Of a stretch of 33,334 nucleotides of DNA, positions 2,468 to 14,393 are shown in pieces. The notes under the pieces were generated by a model that ran no database searches, had not been told where the DNA came from, and saw only the letters and a list, made by a program, of their open reading frames with translations. Each line of letters opens with the position of its first letter. The stretch's first letter is position 1. The position numbers were made by a program, and so were the translations under genes. The stretch is from Asanoa siamensis (lineage in GTDB: Bacteria; Actinomycetota; Actinomycetes; Mycobacteriales; Micromonosporaceae): the NCBI RefSeq assembly GCF_016862555.1, contig NZ_BONE01000088.1, forward strand, positions 1 to 33,334, read 5' to 3'.

Positions 2468-3346
2468 ATGCAAGTCCCCGCTCCGTTCACCTATGAACGG
2501 GCGACGAGTGTCGAGCACGCGATCGAGCTGCTCGGCCAACTGGGCCCCGAGGCCCGGGTCGTCGCCGGTGGTCACAGCCTGATCCCGATGATGAAGCTCC
2601 GGCTGGCGCGCCCCGACGCGCTGGTCGACATCAACGACCTGGGCGCCGAGCTGGCGCAGATCCGGGTCGACGGTGACGCGCTGGTCATCGGTGCCCTGGC
2701 CCGGCACGCCGACGTGCTGGCGTCCGCGGTGGTCGGCGAGCACTTCCCGATCTTCCACGACGCCGAGCGGGTGATCGCCGACCCGGTGGTGCGCAACTTC
2801 GGCACGGTCGGCGGCTCGCTCTGCCAGGCTGACCCGGCGGAGGACCTGGCCGCCGTGTTCGCGGCGCTCGACGCCGTCGCGGTGCTGCGCGGCGCGGCCG
2901 GCGTCCGCGAGGTGCGGGTCCGCGAGCTGCACGTCGGTCCCTACGAGACGGTGCTGGCGCCCGACGAGCTGATGCTCGAGCTGCGAGTGCCGATCCGCCC
3001 GGGGGGCGGCAGCGCGTACGAGAAGGTCGAGCGCCGGGTCGGCGACTACCCGGTGGCCGCGGCCGGCGCGGCGGTGTGGCTCGACGGCGACACGGTGCGC
3101 GACGTCGGCATCGGTCTCACGGCGGTCGGCGCCGAGCATTTCACCGCCCCCGCGGCCGAGGAAGCCCTGCGCGGCCAGCCGGCGACCGAGGAGTCGTTCC
3201 AAGCCGCCGCGCGGCTGGCCGCCGAACACTGCAACCCCAGCGCCGACCAGCGCGGTCCCGTCGACTACAAGCGACACCTCGCCGCCGAGCTGACCACCCG
3301 CGCACTGCGCCGGGCGGCGGCCCGCGCCCGAGGCCAGGAGGCATAA
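2468..3346 (+). CDS. coxM: Aerobic CO dehydrogenase, medium FAD subunit CoxM
   Basis: 292 residues, the normal size for the FAD subunit of molybdenum hydroxylases. FAD-binding motifs of the family are present: AGGHSLIPMMKLR near residues 33-45 and TVGGSLCQADP near 113-123. The C-terminal half matches the CO dehydrogenase flavoprotein C-terminal domain (EKVERRVGDYPVAAAGAAVWL). CoxM takes electrons from the iron-sulfur subunit CoxS and passes them to the quinone pool. The ATG at 2468 has a strong ribosome binding site, ggaggt, five bases upstream. It is the first gene of the operon, and the order M-S-L is that of form I CO dehydrogenases (form II loci usually run S-L-M). The nearest upstream gene is divergent, so the operon promoter should lie in 2389-2467, although no clear -35/-10 boxes are visible there. 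Confidence 0.95.
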   Translation: MQVPAPFTYERATSVEHAIELLGQLGPEARVVAGGHSLIPMMKLRLARPDALVDINDLGAELAQIRVDGDALVIGALARHADVLASAVVGEHFPIFHDAERVIADPVVRNFGTVGGSLCQADPAEDLAAVFAALDAVAVLRGAAGVREVRVRELHVGPYETVLAPDELMLELRVPIRPGGGSAYEKVERRVGDYPVAAAGAAVWLDGDTVRDVGIGLTAVGAEHFTAPAAEEALRGQPATEESFQAAARLAAEHCNPSADQRGPVDYKRHLAAELTTRALRRAAARARGQEA

Positions 3347-3349
3347 ACG

Positions 3350-3856
3350 ATGGAAGTCTCGATCAACATCAACGGTACGGCGGAGACCCACGACGTCGAG
3401 CCCCGCCTCCTGCTGGTCCACTTCATCCGGGAGAAGGCCGGCCTGCGCGGCACCCACTGGGGCTGCGACACGTCCAACTGCGGCACGTGCGTGGTCTGGC
3501 TCGACGGCAAGCCGGTCAAGTCCTGCACGGTGTTCGCCGCGATGGCCGACGGCCACGAGGTGCGTACCGTCGAAGGGCTCGACCAGGGCGGCCAGCTCGA
3601 CCCGGTGCAGGAGGGCTTCATGGAGTGCCACGGCCTCCAGTGCGGCTTCTGCACGCCGGGCATGCTGATGACCGCCCGGGCGCTGCTCGACGCCAACCCC
3701 GACCCGACGGACCCCGAGATCCGCGAGGCGATCTCCGGCCAGCTCTGCCGGTGCACCGGGTACGAGAACATCGTCCGCTCGGTCCGCTGGGCCGCCGAGA
3801 AGGAAGCGGGCGGCCCGGTCACGGAGTCCGAGACCCCCGTGGAGGCGAAGGCATGA
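3350..3856 (+). CDS. coxS: Aerobic CO dehydrogenase, small iron-sulfur subunit CoxS
   Basis: 168 residues. It carries both [2Fe-2S] clusters of the family: an N-terminal plant-ferredoxin type with Cys39, Cys44, Cys47 and Cys59 (GCDTSNCGTC, then KSC), and a C-terminal helical type with Cys98, Cys101, Cys133 and Cys135 (CGFCTPGM, then CRCTGYENIV). These form the electron wire from the Mo-Cu centre in CoxL to FAD in CoxM. It starts three bases after the coxM stop, with aggagg just upstream inside the end of coxM. Its own stop overlaps the coxL start in an ATGA arrangement, so translation of S and L is probably coupled, in keeping with the equimolar complex. No twin-arginine signal is present, consistent with a cytoplasmic enzyme. 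Confidence 0.96.
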   Translation: MEVSININGTAETHDVEPRLLLVHFIREKAGLRGTHWGCDTSNCGTCVVWLDGKPVKSCTVFAAMADGHEVRTVEGLDQGGQLDPVQEGFMECHGLQCGFCTPGMLMTARALLDANPDPTDPEIREAISGQLCRCTGYENIVRSVRWAAEKEAGGPVTESETPVEAKA

Positions 3857-6228
3857 CAACCGTGGAGGAGCGGCCGCACACCGGTTTCGGCCGCACGCTG
3901 CGCAAGGAGGACGTCCGGCTGGTCCGGGGCAAGGGCAACTACGTCGACGACGTACGCCTGCCCGGCATGCTGCACGGCGCCCTGCTGCGCAGCCCGTACG
4001 CGCACGCGAAAATCAACTCGATCGACACCTCGGCCGCCGAGGCGCTGCCGGGCGTCAAGGCCGTCGTCACCGGCGAGACGCTCAAGGGCCTGGGCCTCGC
4101 CTGGATGCCGACGCTCTCCTACGACGTGCAGGCCGTGCTCGCCACCGACAAGGTCCGCTACCAGGGCCAGGAAGTGGCCTTCGTGATCGCCGAGGACCAC
4201 TACACGGCGCGCGACGCGGTCGAGCTGATCGAGGTCGACTACGAGCCGTTGCCCGTGGTCTTCGACGCGAAGCGGGCCCTCGAGCCCGACGCGCCGGTCA
4301 TCCGCGACGACAAGGAGGACCAGCGCGACAACCACATCTTCGACTGGGAATCCGGCGACGCGGCGAGGACCGAGGAGGTGTTCGCGAACGCCGAGGTGGT
4401 CGTCGCGGAGGACATCCTCTACCCGCGGGTGCACCCGGCGCCGCTGGAGACCTGCGGCTCGGTCGCCGACATGGACCCGGTGACCGGCAAGCTCACGCTC
4501 TGGACCACGAGCCAGGCCCCACACGCCCACCGCACCGTGTACGCGCTGGTCGCGGGCCTGCCCGAGCACAAGATCCGGGTCATCGCACCCGACATCGGCG
4601 GCGGCTTCGGCGGCAAGGTCGGCATCTACCCGGGTTACGTGATGTCGATCGTCGGCTCGATCGTCACGGGTAGGCCGGTGAAGTGGGTCGAGGACCGCGC
4701 CGAGCACCTGATGAGCACGGCGTTCGCCCGCGACTACCACATGCGGGGCGAGATCGCGGCCACCAAGGACGGCAAGATCCTCGGCCTGCGGGTCAAGGTG
4801 ATCGCCGACCACGGCGCGTTCAACGCGACCGCGCAGCCGACCAAGTTCCCCGCCGGCTTCTTCCACGTGTTCACGGGCTCCTACGACCTGCGGGCCGCGC
4901 ACTGCGCGGTCACCGGCGTCTACACCAACAAGGCGCCCGGCGGTGTCGCGTACGCCTGCTCGTTCCGCATCACCGAGGCCGTCTACCTGGTCGAGCGCAT
5001 GGTCGACGTGCTCGCCTACGAGCTGAAGGCCGACCCCGCCGAGCTGCGGATGAAGAACCTGCTCAAGCCCGACCAGTTCCCCTACACGACCCAGACCGGC
5101 TGGGAGTACGACTCGGGCGACTACCCGAAGGCGCTCCAGCTCGCCATGGAGATGGCGGGCTACGACGAGCTGCGCCGGGAGCAGGCGGAGAAGCGCGAAC
5201 GGGGCGAGCTGATGGGCGTCGGCATCGCGTTCTTCACCGAGGCGGTCGGCGCGGGCCCGCGCAAGCACATGGACATCCTCGGGCTCGGCATGGCCGACGG
5301 CGCGGAGCTGCGGATCCACCCGACCGGCAAGGCGGTGCTGCGGATCTCGGTCAAGACCCAGGGGCAGGGCCACGAGACCACGTTCGCCCAGATCGTGGGC
5401 AACGAGCTCGGCCTGCCCACGGCCGACATCGAGGTCGTGCACGGCGACACCGACCAGACGCCGTTCGGCCTGGGCACCTACGGATCGCGGTCGACGCCGG
5501 TGTCCGGTGCCGCGACCGCGCTGGTGGCCCGGAAGATCCGCGACAAGGCCAAGATCGTCGCGTCCGCGATGCTCGAGGTGTCGCCCGACGACCTCGAGTG
5601 GGCGGGCAACCGCTGGCATGTCAAGGGCGACCCGGAGCAGGGCAAGACGATCCAGGAGATCGCCCTGGCCGCGCACTCCAGCCTGGAGCTGCCGGAGGGC
5701 GTCGAGGGGCACCTCGACGCGACGACCGTCTACAACCCGCCGAACCTGACCTACCCGTTCGGCGCGTACATCTGCGTGGTCGACGTCGACAAGGGCACCG
5801 GCGCCGTCAAGGTGCGGCGGTTCATCGCCGTCGACGACTGCGGCGTACGGATCAACCCGATGATCGTGGAGGGCCAGGTGCACGGCGGCCTCGCGGACGG
5901 CGTGGGCATGGCGCTGATGCAGGTGATGGCGTTCGACGAGGAGGGCAACCACCTCGGGGCGTCCTTCATGGACTACCTGCTGCCGACCTCGCTGGAGTGC
6001 CCGTCGTGGGAGCTGGGCGAGACGGTCACCCCGTCGCCGCACCACCCCATCGGTGCCAAGGGCGTCGGTGAGTCCGCCACGGTCGGCTCGCCGGCCGCGG
6101 TGGTCAACGCCGTCCTCGACGCGATCCGGCCGTACGGGGTGCGGCACGCGGACATGCCGCTCACGCCGGCCGCGGTCTGGGCGGCCATGCAGGGCCGGCC
6201 GATCCGGACGGACCTCGCGATCCCGTGA
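3853..6228 (+). CDS. coxL: Form I aerobic CO dehydrogenase, large Mo-Cu subunit CoxL
   Basis: 791 residues, the expected size for the catalytic subunit, which oxidises CO with water to CO2. The diagnostic feature is AYACSFR at 4948-4968. The pattern AYxCSFR is the accepted marker of true form I CoxL, and its Cys (residue 369 here) binds the copper of the Mo-Cu cluster. Other molybdenum hydroxylase motifs are [24 protein letters not shown] and, near the C-terminus, [14 protein letters not shown] with the conserved active-site Glu at residue 740. The N-terminus ([20 protein letters not shown]) is typical. The ATG at 3853 overlaps the coxS stop by four bases, and its TGA overlaps the GTG start of the following gene. 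Form I enzymes in actinobacteria are known for scavenging CO down to atmospheric levels; that this strain does so is inference. Confidence 0.97.
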
Positions 6229-7151
6229 TCTCCCTGACGGAGCAGAGGGCGAACGAGCTGCGCGCCGCGCGCAGCCCGTTCGTCCTCGCGGTCGTGGTCC
6301 GGGCGCAGCGGCCCACCTCCGCGAAGCCGGGTGACCGCGCGGTGATCCACCCCGACGGCACGATCGAGGGCTTCGTCGGCGGCTCGTGCGCCGAGTCGAC
6401 CGTGCGGATCCAGAGCCTGCGCCAGCTCGCGGCCGGCGAGTCGACGCTGCTGCGGATCACGCCCGGCGGTGACGCGACCCGGCCCGTCGGCTTCGCCTCC
6501 GACGCGCCGGGCCTCGTGGTCGCCGACAACACCTGCCTGTCCGGCGGCACCATCGACGTGTTCCTGGAGGTGGTCGTGCCGGCTCCGCTGGTGCAGGTCT
6601 ACGGCGACACCCCGATCGCCCGCGCGCTGGTCGCGGTCGGTGCGGCGGCCGGCTACGAGGTGCGGCTCGACCCGGTGCCCGGTGCGGTGCCGGCCGACGC
6701 GCTGGCCGTGGTCGTCGCGTCGCACGGGCACGACGAGACGGGTGTGCTCGCCGAGGCCGTGGCCGCCGGGGTTCCCTACGTCGCGCTGGTCGCCTCGCCG
6801 AAACGCGGTGCGGCCGTGCTGGCCGAGGCGAGCGTGCCGGCCGGCCGGGTCAAGACGCCGGCGGGGCTCGACCTCGGCGCGCGTACGCCCGGTGACGTGG
6901 CGATCTCGATCCTGGCCGAGGTGGTCGCGGCGCGCACCACCGCCGCCCGGCCGGCACCGGCGCCGCGCACGCCGGCGCTGCTCCAGATCGGCGTCGGCGC
7001 ACCGGAGATCGCCGTCGACCCGATCTGCGACATGGAGGTGGTCGTGGAGCCCGGCGCACTGTCCTATGAGCACGACGGGCGGACGTGGTACTTCTGCGCG
7101 CCCGGCTGCCGGAAGAAGTTCGCCGCCGACCCCGCCCGGTGGGGCGGATGA
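6225..7151 (+). CDS. XdhC/CoxF-family maturation protein fused to a C-terminal YHS domain
   Basis: 308 residues from a GTG at 6225 that overlaps the coxL TGA by four bases. Residues about 10-250 match the XdhC/CoxI family: an N-terminal part with IHPDGTIEGFVGGSCAEST and DNTCLSGGTIDVFLE, and a C-terminal Rossmann-like part ending GLDLGARTPGDVAISILAEVVA. These proteins help insert or sulfurate the molybdenum cofactor in xanthine dehydrogenase and CO dehydrogenase. After a Pro/Ala linker, residues about 262-306 form a YHS domain: DPICDMEV, then YFCAPGCRKKFAADP, with Cys268, Cys291 and Cys295. YHS domains are linked to metal handling, for example in copper ATPases. Since CoxL needs a Cu ion, a role in metal delivery is tempting but is inference. 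A second, YHS-free XdhC protein (coxF) follows three genes later. The next start overlaps this stop (ATGA). Confidence 0.9.
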   Translation: MISLTEQRANELRAARSPFVLAVVVRAQRPTSAKPGDRAVIHPDGTIEGFVGGSCAESTVRIQSLRQLAAGESTLLRITPGGDATRPVGFASDAPGLVVADNTCLSGGTIDVFLEVVVPAPLVQVYGDTPIARALVAVGAAAGYEVRLDPVPGAVPADALAVVVASHGHDETGVLAEAVAAGVPYVALVASPKRGAAVLAEASVPAGRVKTPAGLDLGARTPGDVAISILAEVVAARTTAARPAPAPRTPALLQIGVGAPEIAVDPICDMEVVVEPGALSYEHDGRTWYFCAPGCRKKFAADPARWGG

Positions 7152-8020
7152 GCGGCGACCTGCCCGGCGACGTCGGCGGGCTCACGGCGGCGCTGGACCG
7201 CACCGGCTACCTCGCGGACGACGCGCTGTCGACGGCCCTGTTCCTGGCCACCGCGATGCCGGCGCCGATCCTGCTCGAGGGTGAGCCCGGGGTCGGCAAG
7301 ACCGAGGCGGCCAAGGCGCTGGCGACGGCGCTGGACACCCCGCTCGTGCGGCTCCAGTGCTACGAGGGGCTGACCGTCTCGGAGGCGCTCTACGAGTGGA
7401 ACTATCCGCGGCAGCTCCTGGCGATCCGGCTCGCGGAGGCGTCCGGCGCGTCGGTCGCGTCCGCGGACCTGTTCACGCCGGAGTTCCTGCTGCGCCGGCC
7501 GTTGCTGCACGCCCTCGAGCACCCCGGGCCGCGGCCGGCCGTGCTGCTGCTCGACGAGGTCGACCGGGCCGACGACGAGTTCGAGGCGTTCCTGCTCGAG
7601 TTGCTGGCGGAGAGCACCGTGACGATCCCGGAGCTGGGCACCCGCCGCGCGGTGCTGCCGCCGATCGTGGTGCTCACCTCCAACCGCACCCGCGACCTGC
7701 ACGACGCGCTCAAGCGGCGCTGTCTCTACCACTGGATCCCTTATCCGGCCGCGGAACGGGTGGCGGCGATCGTGCGCCGGCGGGTGCCCGGCATCGGCGA
7801 CCCGCTCGCCGACCAGGTCGCCGAGACCGTGCGCCGGCTGCGCGGGCTCGACCTCTACAAGCCGCCCGGGGTCGCGGAGGCGGTCGACTGGGCCACGGCG
7901 CTGCGGGTGCTGGGCATCGAGGCGCTGACGCCGGCGGCGCTGCGCCGGACGATGGCCGCGGTGGTGAAATACGACGAGGACCTGGCGACGGTACGCGCCA
8001 GCGGGCTGTTCGATGACTGA
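7148..8020 (+). CDS. coxD: MoxR-type AAA+ ATPase CoxD
   Basis: 290 residues. Walker A is GEPGVGKTE at residues 45-53 and Walker B is AVLLLDEVDRAD near 131-142. The sensor region is VVLTSNRTRDLHDALKRRCLYHWI, typical of MoxR ATPases. In Oligotropha carboxidovorans, CoxD is a membrane-associated chaperone ATPase needed to build the [CuSMoO2] centre of CO dehydrogenase. The ATG at 7148 overlaps the upstream stop by four bases and is preferred over an upstream in-frame ATG at 7085, which would lie inside the YHS coding region. The end overlaps coxE by eight bases. MoxR ATPases work with VWA-domain partners, and the next gene supplies one. Confidence 0.95.
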   Translation: MSGDLPGDVGGLTAALDRTGYLADDALSTALFLATAMPAPILLEGEPGVGKTEAAKALATALDTPLVRLQCYEGLTVSEALYEWNYPRQLLAIRLAEASGASVASADLFTPEFLLRRPLLHALEHPGPRPAVLLLDEVDRADDEFEAFLLELLAESTVTIPELGTRRAVLPPIVVLTSNRTRDLHDALKRRCLYHWIPYPAAERVAAIVRRRVPGIGDPLADQVAETVRRLRGLDLYKPPGVAEAVDWATALRVLGIEALTPAALRRTMAAVVKYDEDLATVRASGLFDD

Positions 8021-9242
8021 CCTGGCCACTGTGGACCTGGCGACCGTGGTGGCCCGGTTCGGCGCGGTGCTGCACGACGCGGGCGTCGCGGTCGGCCCGG
8101 ACCGCGGCGAGCGGTTCGCCTGCGCCGTGCTACTGACCCGGCCCGTCACCACCCGCGCGCTCTACCACTGCGCCGCCGTCACGCTGCTCGCCGACCCGGC
8201 CGACCGGCCGGCCTTCGACCGCGCCTTCGACCTCGTGTTCGGCGGTCTGGCCGACGACGCGTCCGCCCGGGGTGGCCACCAGCCCGACCCGAGCCCCTCG
8301 TCGAGCGGGGTGCCGCCCCGGCCCGGTTCCACAGCGGGCGGCGGCCAGCCCGGGATCGGTGACCGCCCACCGGGAGTCCCTCCTTCGTCGCCCGGGACCC
8401 GTAGCCCGTATCCCCTGATAGCGACCGCGAGCGAACGACTGGGCGAGCGCGACTTCGCCCGACTGACCCCCGACGAGCTCGCGGAGCTCGCCGTCGCCAT
8501 GCGGCGGCTGAAGCTCGCGAGCCCGCCGCGGCGTACGCGCCGCACCCACGTCGGGTCGCACGGCCCCGCCGTCGACCTGCGCGCCACGCTGCGCGCCGCC
8601 CGCCGGACGGGTGGCCACCCGGTGCGGCTGCGGCGCCGGCGGCCACGGGTGAAGCCGCGCCGGCTCGTCGTGCTCTGCGACATCTCGGGCTCGATGGCGC
8701 CGTACGCGCGGGCGTTGCTGCAGCTCGTCTACTGCGCGGCCGGCGGCCGCGACGCCGAGGTGTTCACCTTCGCCACCCGGCTGACCAGGCTGACCCGGGT
8801 GCTGCGCCGCGTCTCGCCGGCGGTGGCTCTTGAACGTGCCGGCCGCGCGGCCCCAGACTGGTCGGGCGGCACGAGGATCGGCGACACGCTGCGCACCTTC
8901 ATCGACGACTACGGAGCCCGCGGGATGGCCCGGGGTGCGGTGGTGCTGATCCTGAGCGACGGTTGGGACACGGGAGCACCGGAAGAGCTGGGGCGGCAGA
9001 TGAGCCGGCTGTCGCGCCTGGCGTTCCGGGTGGTCTGGGCGAACCCGCGCACGCAGAGCGCGGCGTTCCGGCCACTGACGGGGGGCATGGCCGCCGCGTG
9101 GCCGCACTGCGACGCGGTGGTGAGCGCGCACCGCCTGGACGCGCTCGACGAGCTGTTGGCGGCGTTGGCGGACGCCGGACCCCGCTGGCGGCGGCCGGCC
9201 GGACCGACCATAGTGATAGCTGGGGGCGATGATCGTGCGTGA
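8013..9242 (+). CDS. coxE: VWA-domain protein CoxE
   Basis: 409 residues. The C-terminal half is a von Willebrand A domain with the MIDAS signature LCDISGSM (Asp223, Ser225, Ser227), followed by a Thr-containing loop (WSGGTRIGDTL) and LILSDGWDTG with the later Asp. The segment before it, LTPDELAELAVAMRRLKLASPPRRTRRT, is typical of CoxE. Residues about 83-135 form a Pro/Gly/Ser-rich low-complexity linker. CoxE is the expected partner of the MoxR ATPase CoxD in inserting sulfur and copper into the CoxL active site. The start at 8013 lies eight bases inside coxD. The end overlaps coxF by 14 bases, continuing the translational coupling. Cytoplasmic; no membrane span seen. Confidence 0.94.
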   Translation: MTDLATVDLATVVARFGAVLHDAGVAVGPDRGERFACAVLLTRPVTTRALYHCAAVTLLADPADRPAFDRAFDLVFGGLADDASARGGHQPDPSPSSSGVPPRPGSTAGGGQPGIGDRPPGVPPSSPGTRSPYPLIATASERLGERDFARLTPDELAELAVAMRRLKLASPPRRTRRTHVGSHGPAVDLRATLRAARRTGGHPVRLRRRRPRVKPRRLVVLCDISGSMAPYARALLQLVYCAAGGRDAEVFTFATRLTRLTRVLRRVSPAVALERAGRAAPDWSGGTRIGDTLRTFIDDYGARGMARGAVVLILSDGWDTGAPEELGRQMSRLSRLAFRVVWANPRTQSAAFRPLTGGMAAAWPHCDAVVSAHRLDALDELLAALADAGPRWRRPAGPTIVIAGGDDRA

Positions 9243-10356
9243 CGTGCTCACTGATCTCGCGCGCTGGTGGCGCGCGGATCGACCGGTGGGGATGGCCACG
9301 GTGGTGGGCACCTGGAAGAGCGCACCGCGGCCACCCGGTGCCACCATGCTCGTCGGCCCTGACCAGACCGCGGTCGGCAGTGTCTCCGGCGGCTGCGTGG
9401 AGGCGGCCGTCTACGAGCTCGGCCTCGGCGCGATCGAGTCCGGCGAGCCGCAGCTCGTGCGCTACGGCGTGAGCGACGACGACGCGTTCTCCGTCGGCCT
9501 GACCTGCGGCGGCATCATCGACATCTTCGTGGAGCGGGTCGACCCCGTCTCCTTCCCGCAGCTCGGCTCGGTGGTCTCGGCGATCGAGGCCGAGTCGCCG
9601 GTCGCCGTGGCCACGGTGATCCGGGACCCGGGCGACCGGCTCGGCCGGCGGGTGGTCGTCTGGCCCGACCGGGTCGACGGCTCGCTCGGCTCGGCCCACT
9701 TCGACGCCGCGCTGGTCGAGGACGTGCGCGGCATGCTGGCCTCGGGGCTGACGGGGCCACTGCACTACGGGCCCGACGGCGAGCGGCTCGGCGACGACGT
9801 GGCCGTGTTCGTCGCCTCGTACGCACCGCCGCCACGGATGCTCGTGTTCGGCGCGATCGACTTCGCGTCGGCGCTGGCCCGGCAGGGCACGTTCCTCGGC
9901 TACCGGGTGACCGTCTGCGACGCGCGGCCGGTGTTCGCGACCAGCCGCCGGTTCCCCGGCGTCGAGGTGGTCGTCGACTGGCCGCACCGCTATCTGGCGG
10001 GCGAGATCGAGGCCGGGCGGGTCGACGGGCGCACGGTCGTCTGCGTGCTCACCCACGACCCGAAGTTCGACCTGCCGGTGCTGAAGCTGGCGCTGGACCG
10101 GGAGTTCGCCTACGTGGGCGCGATGGGCTCACGGCGGACCCACGACGACCGGGTCGCCGGTCTGGTCGAGGCGGGCGTGCCCGAGGCGCAGCTCAAGAAG
10201 CTGCACTCGCCGATCGGGCTGGCGCTGGGCGCGCGTACGCCCGAGGAGACCGCGGTGAGCATCACCGCCGAGATCATCGCCGACCGCTGGGGCGGCGGCG
10301 GCCAGAAGCTGTCCACTCTGGACGGCAGCATCCACGAGCACCTCGACCGACGCTGA
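9229..10356 (+). CDS. coxF: XdhC/CoxF-family CO dehydrogenase maturation protein
   Basis: 375 residues, the usual length for the two-domain form. The N-terminal XdhC/CoxI domain contains ATVVGTWKSAPRPPGATM and SVSGGCVEAAVYELG, then LTCGGIIDIFVE. The C-terminal XdhC_C Rossmann domain begins near MLVFGAIDFASALARQG and contains FAYVGAMGSRRTHDDR and IGLALGARTPEETAVSI. Such proteins bind molybdenum cofactor and support its sulfuration or insertion. The ATG at 9229 lies 14 bases inside coxE and has a good ribosome binding site (tgggggcg). It ends 15 bases before coxG. It is a diverged paralogue of the YHS-fused protein at 6225-7151, so the operon encodes two XdhC-type factors; whether they act together or in different steps cannot be read from the sequence. 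Confidence 0.92.
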   Translation: MIVRDVLTDLARWWRADRPVGMATVVGTWKSAPRPPGATMLVGPDQTAVGSVSGGCVEAAVYELGLGAIESGEPQLVRYGVSDDDAFSVGLTCGGIIDIFVERVDPVSFPQLGSVVSAIEAESPVAVATVIRDPGDRLGRRVVVWPDRVDGSLGSAHFDAALVEDVRGMLASGLTGPLHYGPDGERLGDDVAVFVASYAPPPRMLVFGAIDFASALARQGTFLGYRVTVCDARPVFATSRRFPGVEVVVDWPHRYLAGEIEAGRVDGRTVVCVLTHDPKFDLPVLKLALDREFAYVGAMGSRRTHDDRVAGLVEAGVPEAQLKKLHSPIGLALGARTPEETAVSITAEIIADRWGGGGQKLSTLDGSIHEHLDRR

Positions 10357-10371
10357 CTGGGAGACCCTGCA

Positions 10372-11268
10372 ATGGAGCTGGAACACGAGTTCACCGTGGC
10401 GGCGCCCGTCGAGCGCGCCTGGGACGTCCTGCTCGACCTCGGGACGATCGTCCCGTGCATGCCGGGCGCGGCGCTGACGGGCCAGGACGGTGACAGCTTC
10501 GACGGCACCGTCAAGGTCAAGCTCGGCCCGGTCTCGATGACGTTCGCGGGCAAGGGGAAGTTCGTCGAGCGCGACGAGGCCAACCGGCGCGTGGTCGTCG
10601 AGGCCGCGGGGCGGGACTCCCGCGGCGGCGGCACGGCGAAGGCGACGGTGCGGGCGACCCTGACCCCGTCGGCCGACCCGTCGTCGACCGACGTCCACGT
10701 GCACACCGACCTCGCGGTGACCGGCCGCATCGCCCAGTTCGGCCGGGGCATGATCGCCGACGTGAGCGGGCGGCTGCTCGGGCAGTTCACCGACTGCCTG
10801 CAGGGCAAGCTGGCCGGTGGCTCGACGGTCGCGGCCGCGCACACGGCGACTTCGGCGGGTGCCGCCGCCTCGGGTGGTGGTGCGGCGGCCGCCGGATCGG
10901 CCGCGGCCAACCCGCCGGCGGGCACGCCCGCCTCGGGCGGCGCGGGCGGCGCGGGCGGCGCGGGCGGTGGTGCGGCGGGGCAGCCCAACGGCCGGGGCGG
11001 CGGACGCCCGGAGGCGTTCCACGGCACCCGGCCGGCCGAGCGGGCGTTCCCCGGTCAGCTCGACGCGGAGGAGCGGCAGGCGTTCACGGAGGAGGGTCCG
11101 GCGTTCGCGGAGGAGCGGCCGGCGTTCGGCGACGAGGTCGAGCCGGTCGACCTGCTGGCGATAACGGGCGCGGACCAGGCCGTACGGCGCGCGCTGCCGT
11201 ACGCCCTGGTGTTCCTGGCCGGTATCGCGGTCGGCACGATCTTCTTCCGGCGGCGCCGCTCCGGCTAG
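10372..11268 (+). CDS. coxG: CO dehydrogenase membrane adaptor CoxG (SRPBCC domain plus C-terminal membrane anchor)
   Basis: 298 residues. Residues 1-148 are a CoxG-type SRPBCC domain (EFTVAAPVERAWDVLLD, VPCMPGA, VKVKLGPVSMTFAGKG, DLAVTGRIAQFGRGMI). Residues about 149-213 form an Ala/Gly/Ser linker. Residues 214-252 repeat an Ala-Phe motif five times (Phe216, 226, 238, 245, 252) among acidic residues. Residues about 275-292 are a hydrophobic helix followed by RRRRSG, a tail-anchor pattern with the positive end in the cytoplasm. CoxG family proteins recruit CO dehydrogenase to the membrane, and recent work proposes that they hand menaquinone to the enzyme. The layout here fits a quinone-binding domain on a long tether. 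It is the last gene of the operon; the next gene is convergent, 24 bases away. The linker is longer and more repetitive than the folded domain needs. Confidence 0.93.
   Translation: MELEHEFTVAAPVERAWDVLLDLGTIVPCMPGAALTGQDGDSFDGTVKVKLGPVSMTFAGKGKFVERDEANRRVVVEAAGRDSRGGGTAKATVRATLTPSADPSSTDVHVHTDLAVTGRIAQFGRGMIADVSGRLLGQFTDCLQGKLAGGSTVAAAHTATSAGAAASGGGAAAAGSAAANPPAGTPASGGAGGAGGAGGGAAGQPNGRGGGRPEAFHGTRPAERAFPGQLDAEERQAFTEEGPAFAEERPAFGDEVEPVDLLAITGADQAVRRALPYALVFLAGIAVGTIFFRRRRSG

Positions 11269-11957: not shown

Positions 11958-14393
<2,436 letters not shown>

Follow-up and report, generated by a model that had tools for sequence, protein, structure and literature searches.

The DNA analysed here (the window: 33,334 nucleotides of contig NZ_BONE01000088.1 from Asanoa siamensis) carries an operon for carbon monoxide (CO) dehydrogenase, CODH, in which the gene following the form I catalytic subunit gene coxL encodes an XdhC-type protein fused with a C-terminal YHS domain. 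This 308-residue protein (6225..7151, plus strand, as are the other genes of the operon) is best read, by its domains and context, as CoxF. Three Pfam domains were found over cut-off: XdhC_CoxI in residues 13-78 (6261..6458; 60.9 bits against 24.3), the Rossmann-type XdhC_C in residues 124-233 (6594..6923; 53.7 bits against 29.7), and YHS (PF04945), matched over residues 264-305 (E 2.2e-8, 34.4 bits against a gathering score of 30.3) and delimited, from this match, the predicted ligands and structure models, as residues 262-306 (7008..7142). The presumed metal ligands of the YHS domain, named by their invariance, are D265 (7017-7019), C268 (7026-7028), C291 (7095-7097) and C295 (7107-7109). 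Cys104 of the XdhC part (6534..6536) was kept in all 76 aligned CoxF rows. A preliminary description of this DNA had proposed the fusion and its Cys268, Cys291 and Cys295, and all of these were borne out by the Pfam matches, the sequence and invariance in alignment A2 (the window protein plus 25 fusions 32-58% identical to it, found by searching with the whole protein or, in one case, in a plasmid record, and chosen for having the tail). The Pfam match and the invariant columns of A2 also ruled out an origin of the tail by chance or from a wrong frame. The protein fell below the cut-off of the NCBIfam aldehyde oxidoreductase XdhC model (NF045664, 62.9 against 350), no match to TIGR02964 (xanthine dehydrogenase XdhC) was listed for it, and its score with TRASH_HVO_1752_C (PF24273) was 13.7, below the gathering score of 27.

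An AlphaFold2 model of CoxF (69 aligned fusions) had a mean predicted local distance difference test score (pLDDT) of 90.8 and a predicted template modelling score of 0.83. Residues 261-308 reached mean pLDDT values of 92-97 per ten-residue block, and the preceding blocks 241-250 and 251-260 were poorly ordered (48 and 64). In this model both the XdhC body and the tail are predicted with confidence, and the linker between them is loose. The whole model matched the solved structures 2we7/2we8 and 3on5. Modelled alone, the tail had a pLDDT of 95.4; its nearest solved folds were hydroxylase domains of toluene/phenol monooxygenases, ribosomal L24e and the TRASH domain of ZMYM5, and a search of viral structures gave no match below E 0.001.

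As the preliminary description had it, the fusion lies inside a cox operon, and this operon has the order coxM-S-L-F-D-E-I-G and a form I coxL. The genes are tightly packed, most of them overlapping by a few bases. The flavin adenine dinucleotide (FAD) subunit gene coxM (2468..3346; FAD_binding_5 151 bits, CO_deh_flav_C 82 bits) is followed by coxS for the 2Fe-2S subunit (3350..3856; Fer2_2 110 bits) and by coxL (3853..6228; TIGR02416 1353 bits, cut-off 991), which has the form I motif AYACSFR and whose ATG at 3853 overlaps the coxS stop. The GTG start of coxF overlaps the coxL stop, and its own stop overlaps the ATG of coxD, a MoxR-type AAA+ ATPase gene assigned by an AAA_5 match of 54.6 bits and by operon position (7148..8020). 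Further downstream are coxE for a VWA protein (8013..9242; VWA_CoxE 185.8 bits), a gene for a second, CoxI-like XdhC protein (9229..10356; XdhC_C 139.9 bits, XdhC_CoxI 128.2 bits), in which Pfam found no YHS match, and coxG (10372..11268; COXG 52.2 bits). An open reading frame adjoining the end of the operon (11958-13412, minus strand) resembles, by eye, a secreted GH10 xylanase. The whole genome (8.78 Mb, 219 contigs) gave one whole-protein match and one YHS match, both of them the window coxF. Its form II cluster (L124), which contains coxD, coxE, coxS, coxL (AYRGAGR) and coxM, had no XdhC or YHS match within the 16 kb fetched.

Association of the fusion with form I coxL

The fusion is linked almost exclusively to form I coxL. 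In 198 Actinomycetota genomes, form I coxL over cut-off was present in 32, all of which matched the CoxF protein, and the fusion was detected in 29 of these 32 genomes versus 5 of the other 166 (Fisher test, p about 2e-26, which is not a real probability because the genomes are related). Among the three form I genomes with no detected fusion, CoxF was cut by a contig end in G017 and G189, and the tail was absent in G150. All five fusion genomes that had no full form I coxL still held a partial or form I-like coxL: in G013 a partial coxL with AYRCSFR adjoins the fusion, and in G103, G124, G127 and G160 a C-terminal piece of coxL lies directly upstream of it at a contig end, sharing 65-80% identity with form I references and 47-51% with form II ones. 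In three of the 29 genomes the fusion was on a different contig from the coxL hit: a coxL piece upstream of it in G028 was 78% identical to form I and 49% to form II, and the contigs of G042 and G108 have just 54 and 139 bases upstream of the fusion. The expectation in the preliminary description that fusions accompany AYxCSFR-type coxL largely held in these genomes, if partial and form I-like coxL are allowed for in the five, and failed at a single locus of the motif scan described below (L044).

The same genomes gave 217 XdhC_C (PF13478) matches in 113 genomes, 150 of which were listed, and the CoxF-type YHS-tail profile gave 124 matches in 81 genomes. Of these YHS matches, 35 are at CoxF positions, in 34 genomes; none of the remaining 89 lies within 3 kb of the 150 of 217 XdhC_C matches listed. 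A YHS tail as a general feature of XdhC proteins is ruled out in the genomes searched. The related expectation that fusions stay out of other XdhC loci agrees with this count, which treats those loci together and does not single out xanthine dehydrogenase loci.

We also scanned genome contigs with a YHS-motif pattern and took the best 80 of 543 loci. An AYxCSFR coxL was present in 74 of these, with at most 300 nt from the coxL end to the coxF start in 69 of the 74. The other six comprised three with coxL pieces closer to form I, two in which the contig starts at or just before the fusion, and L044, with no coxL. The L044 fusion (1647-2558), from a Thermoleophilaceae metagenome-assembled genome, stands next to a MocA-like nucleotidyltransferase gene (by eye) and a divergent second XdhC gene. 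Both L048 and L080 contain a pair of form I coxL genes: coxD-coxE follow one of them and the XdhC-YHS gene the other, and a small open reading frame resembling coxL (88 bits) lies in between. Records with the fusion were titled Actinomycetota, Chloroflexi, Thermomicrobium, Thermaceae, Acidobacteriota, Armatimonadota, Verrucomicrobiota, Rokuibacteriota and Saccharospirillum, and this spread across many phyla rules out a local oddity of the window's genome.

Starting from coxL instead, we found the tail in all 40 complete CoxF proteins encoded near form I coxL in Chloroflexota (41 loci, one CoxF cut; 39 of 39 if G205, met earlier through its fusion, is left aside). Form I coxL was present in 42 Chloroflexota genomes, 41 of which were fetched around coxL; the remaining one, G199, was represented by L097, which has YHS. 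In Actinomycetota, 26 of 27 complete CoxF proteins had the tail, or 27 of 28 if the window is counted. The 34 loci behind this figure comprised 26 with YHS (including G013), one without it, three with CoxF cut and four with coxL at a contig end; in these last four genomes a CoxF with YHS was present on another contig. Five loci from other phyla all had the tail, but were found through it. No coxD or coxE match was present in the stretch fetched for 33 of the 41 Chloroflexota loci, as against both in 16 of 17 Pseudomonadota loci, so that in Chloroflexota the tailed coxF keeps its place next to coxL also in loci where these two factors are missing from the stretch. In seven loci (L163, L166-L170, L202) CoxL scored over the form I cut-off and its open reading frame was read without the literal AYxCSFR string.

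Among the matches listed for 349 Pseudomonadota genomes, those of G198 and G530, both in form I clusters, span the XdhC part to position 300/304 of the fusion profile with no stop, and those of G255, G439 and G497 reach positions 289, 285 and 277 across stop codons only. G519 matched the profile at its YHS end alone, in an 874-codon frame. CoxF-like XdhC proteins with no YHS were also seen in G347, G322 and G374, Pseudomonadota with no form I coxL at the search threshold.

Ligand residues and history of the tail

Invariant positions of the tail in A2 were D265, P266, C268, M270, V272, F290, C291 and C295. The window tail follows the pattern Asp-x2-Cys-x22-Cys-x3-Cys, with the same spacing as the YHS domain of an M. 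phlei adenylyl cyclase. Every one of the 72 YHS tails in the coxL-centred sets from Chloroflexota and Actinomycetota had these four residues (D-C-C-C), as did 79 of the 80 motif-picked loci (the later part of L090 was not aligned). Because the fusions were found by a YHS motif, the ligand columns of profile A4, which was built from them, are in part a product of that selection; the sets gathered around coxL were not motif-picked, their tails having been found with the fusion-tail profile. Variants of the tail were observed as well: a CoxF on a Deinococcus plasmid (L034 8983-10041) retained one of the four presumed ligands, and a CoxF of G100 (L234 6804-7904, minus strand; the same protein as in L013) had a tandem pair of YHS domains.

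In the XdhC body, Cys55 and Cys104 were invariant in alignments A2 and A3. Cys104 is the counterpart of the Cys in M107CPSHGTM, a copper motif proposed for CoxF of Oligotropha/Afipia carboxidovorans OM5. Conservation of this motif across CoxF had to be rejected: in the 76 CoxF rows it is not kept beyond the Cys and a nearly constant Ser and Gly, its His was found in OM5 only, and the Met that precedes the Cys occurs in 7 of 17 rows from Pseudomonadota and in 1 of the remaining 59 (counted by eye).

The XdhC part of these 76 CoxF rows was placed in a quick maximum-likelihood tree (79 rows and 280 columns in all); 59 of the CoxF rows have the tail (the Deinococcus protein counted) and 17 lack it, namely 15 from Pseudomonadota including OM5, the Actinomycetota G150 and the Nonomuraea locus L036. 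The distribution of the YHS state over these rows requires three changes. The 15 Pseudomonadota rows with no YHS formed one group (Shimodaira-Hasegawa-like approximate likelihood ratio support 94) beside two YHS-bearing ones. With the XdhC profile of the fusions OM5 CoxF scored 237 bits and the second XdhC protein of the window 125, scores that would agree with the window CoxF being nearer to OM5 CoxF than to the CoxI-like XdhC, but the split from the outgroup rows in the tree was weakly supported. The simplest reading would be one early YHS-bearing CoxF followed by three losses, a direction that change counts, which cannot tell gain from loss, and the weak root leave to parsimony. No YHS-like words were seen downstream of two of the CoxF stops in question, that of G150 having been read in three frames. 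In G150 this coxF is directly followed by a MocA-like open reading frame (by eye; L127, downstream of 7529, minus strand).

Candidate roles of the YHS tail

The preliminary description had offered the fusion as a concrete candidate for the supply of copper to CoxL. For CoxF as such a copper role is not new: the available part of PMC4240915 (Pelzmann 2014) already describes copper-free CODH in a coxF mutant of OM5. CODH from the coxF and coxE mutants was folded; it contained molybdenum (Mo) and sulfane sulfur, and copper was almost absent. Per mol, the coxF mutant enzyme had Cu 0.043, Mo 1.85 and sulfane S 1.40, and that of the wild type grown alike had Cu 1.47 (PMC4240915). The phenotype is not attributable to CoxF alone, because each mutant lacked both CoxF and CoxE (PMC4240915). 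CoxF was also grouped with XdhC homologues of other CODH operons, according to the portion of PMC2997495 available. The word YHS does not occur in the available part of PMC4240915, XdhC is not mentioned in that of PMC6794299, and neither is mentioned in that of PMC13240472. We found no description of an XdhC + YHS architecture in the open-licence literature searched, in which the YHS domain combined with CO dehydrogenase led to two selenoprotein reviews. CoxF itself is known, and the YHS-bearing architecture is new relative to the literature searched.

Our best reading of the tail, and probably the right one, is a copper task. It rests on the anatomy of the tail and on its pairing with a copper-dependent enzyme. 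The conserved presumed ligands, the copper-poor CODH of the OM5 coxF mutant (PMC4240915) and the Cu2+ response of the YHS-bearing M. phlei cyclase (PMC4626032) speak for it too. The tail would then act as a tethered metallochaperone domain: the XdhC body would dock on folded apo-CoxMSL and guard or present the Mo site in its sulfurated state; the tethered YHS domain, with its one Asp and three Cys, may bind copper taken in vivo from a cytosolic donor and pass Cu(I) to the Mo-SH group, CoxD and CoxE presumably acting around CoxF. A stronger version, which we regard as possible and somewhat doubtful, would make XdhC-YHS the ancestral general copper insertion factor of Mo-Cu CODH, the tail itself carrying copper to Mo-SH, and would place OM5 in a derived branch from which the copper-loading domain has been lost and which uses another route.

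Several observations weigh against a copper task of the tail. OM5, in which CoxF matters for copper, has a CoxF with no YHS, and among Pseudomonadota the tail was present in just 2 of 16 complete CoxF proteins and absent from 14 (17 loci, one cut; 1 of 15 with the centre genome G198, met through its fusion, left aside). Copper insertion can therefore work without the tail, and a universal need of the tail, or a universal copper route to CoxL through it, is ruled out. YHS was likewise absent from CoxF of the Actinomycetota G150 and of Nonomuraea (L036). G092 and G189 have additional form I coxL copies with no CoxF in the stretch fetched, and the L044 fusion had no coxL in 10.5 kb, with no form I coxL found in that assembly. 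With regard to the ligands, one of the YHS-bearing CoxF proteins of Pseudomonadota has N-C-C-C, with Asn for Asp, and another keeps D-C-C-C; the Deinococcus CoxF gives a YHS match, yet has lost three of the four residues. The idea that the fusion couples cofactor insertion to copper supply is partly supported: it gained from the form I linkage and lost from the absence of the tail in OM5 and most Pseudomonadota. The extra coxL copies, both with AYRCSFR, are at L125 2717-5203 (G092) and L126 3564-6026 (G189); another form I coxL copy of G189 (L251) was cut by a contig end.

The main alternative is that YHS is a structural zinc domain docking CoxF on CoxL, CoxD or CoxE, any copper handling being done by the XdhC body. 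The nearest folds of the tail, monooxygenase hydroxylase, L24e and ZMYM5 TRASH domains, point this way and also count against copper, all with E > 0.2 for a 43-residue query; the tail-less CoxF with which OM5 inserts copper (PMC4240915) and the invariant Cys55 and Cys104 of the body agree with it. A generic docking knob, however, would not be expected to pair almost exclusively with the copper-dependent form and to be missing from other XdhC proteins, and the YHS-bearing M. phlei cyclase, with the same ligand spacing, is responsive to Cu2+ but to none of Zn, Fe, Cr, Co and Ni (available part of PMC4626032). We consider the zinc alternative unlikely. The cyclase also suggests a copper sensor or gate, in which copper would switch CoxF to release the Mo site and the tail would not itself be the donor: its C-terminal YHS domain is held to switch on the catalytic domain with Cu2+ (PMC4626032), and in the model of CoxF the YHS domain is predicted to be likewise C-terminal after a linker. 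Such a gate would need a separate copper donor, and we judge it improbable. Least probable of all, and in our view very much so, is a tail tied to Mo sulfuration. XdhC proteins are said to assist Mo sulfuration in molybdenum hydroxylases (PMC4240915), but other XdhC-dependent enzymes would then need the tail too, and apart from L044 it was found with form I coxL; moreover, CODH of the coxF mutant kept its sulfane sulfur and had almost no copper (PMC4240915).

Aerobic CO-oxidising bacteria take about 250 Tg CO from the air each year (available part of PMC6794299), and the copper route of their form I enzyme is unsettled, the model in the available part of PMC4240915 being built on one organism, a mostly unconserved motif and mutants deficient in two proteins. 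With its ~45 residues, its conservation, its separate fold and its tie to this enzyme, the YHS domain offers a small target for testing copper delivery. It also provides a sequence marker separating many CoxF proteins from other XdhC proteins, and its presence in many lineages and absence from the textbook organism make the question of the copper route directly testable.

Comparison with known systems

The closest known system is CoxF of OM5 (pHCG3), also an XdhC-type protein of a form I cluster, with 32.8% identity over window residues 10-234. Unlike the window protein, OM5 CoxF ends after the XdhC part and has no YHS domain, and the OM5 gene order is M-S-L-D-E-F rather than M-S-L-F-D-E. The XdhC relatives 2we7/2we8 (the M. 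smegmatis homologue of Rv0376c) and 3on5 resemble the body of CoxF in sequence and fold, but their sequence matches span this body only. For the tail, the class III adenylyl cyclase of M. phlei has the same arrangement of a C-terminal YHS domain (PF04945) with identically spaced Asp and three Cys. Its ligands D178, C181, C204 and C208 were inferred by analogy by its author (PMC4626032), and the word mutant is not found in the available part of that paper. There the domain is attached to a cyclase, and the author interprets it as a copper sensor. The YHS domain of heavy-metal P-type ATPases is a further relative: two plasmid-encoded proteins annotated as heavy metal translocating P-type ATPases matched the window protein at the tail only (48% identity, E 8e-6), the same small domain being joined in them to another host protein with another cellular task.

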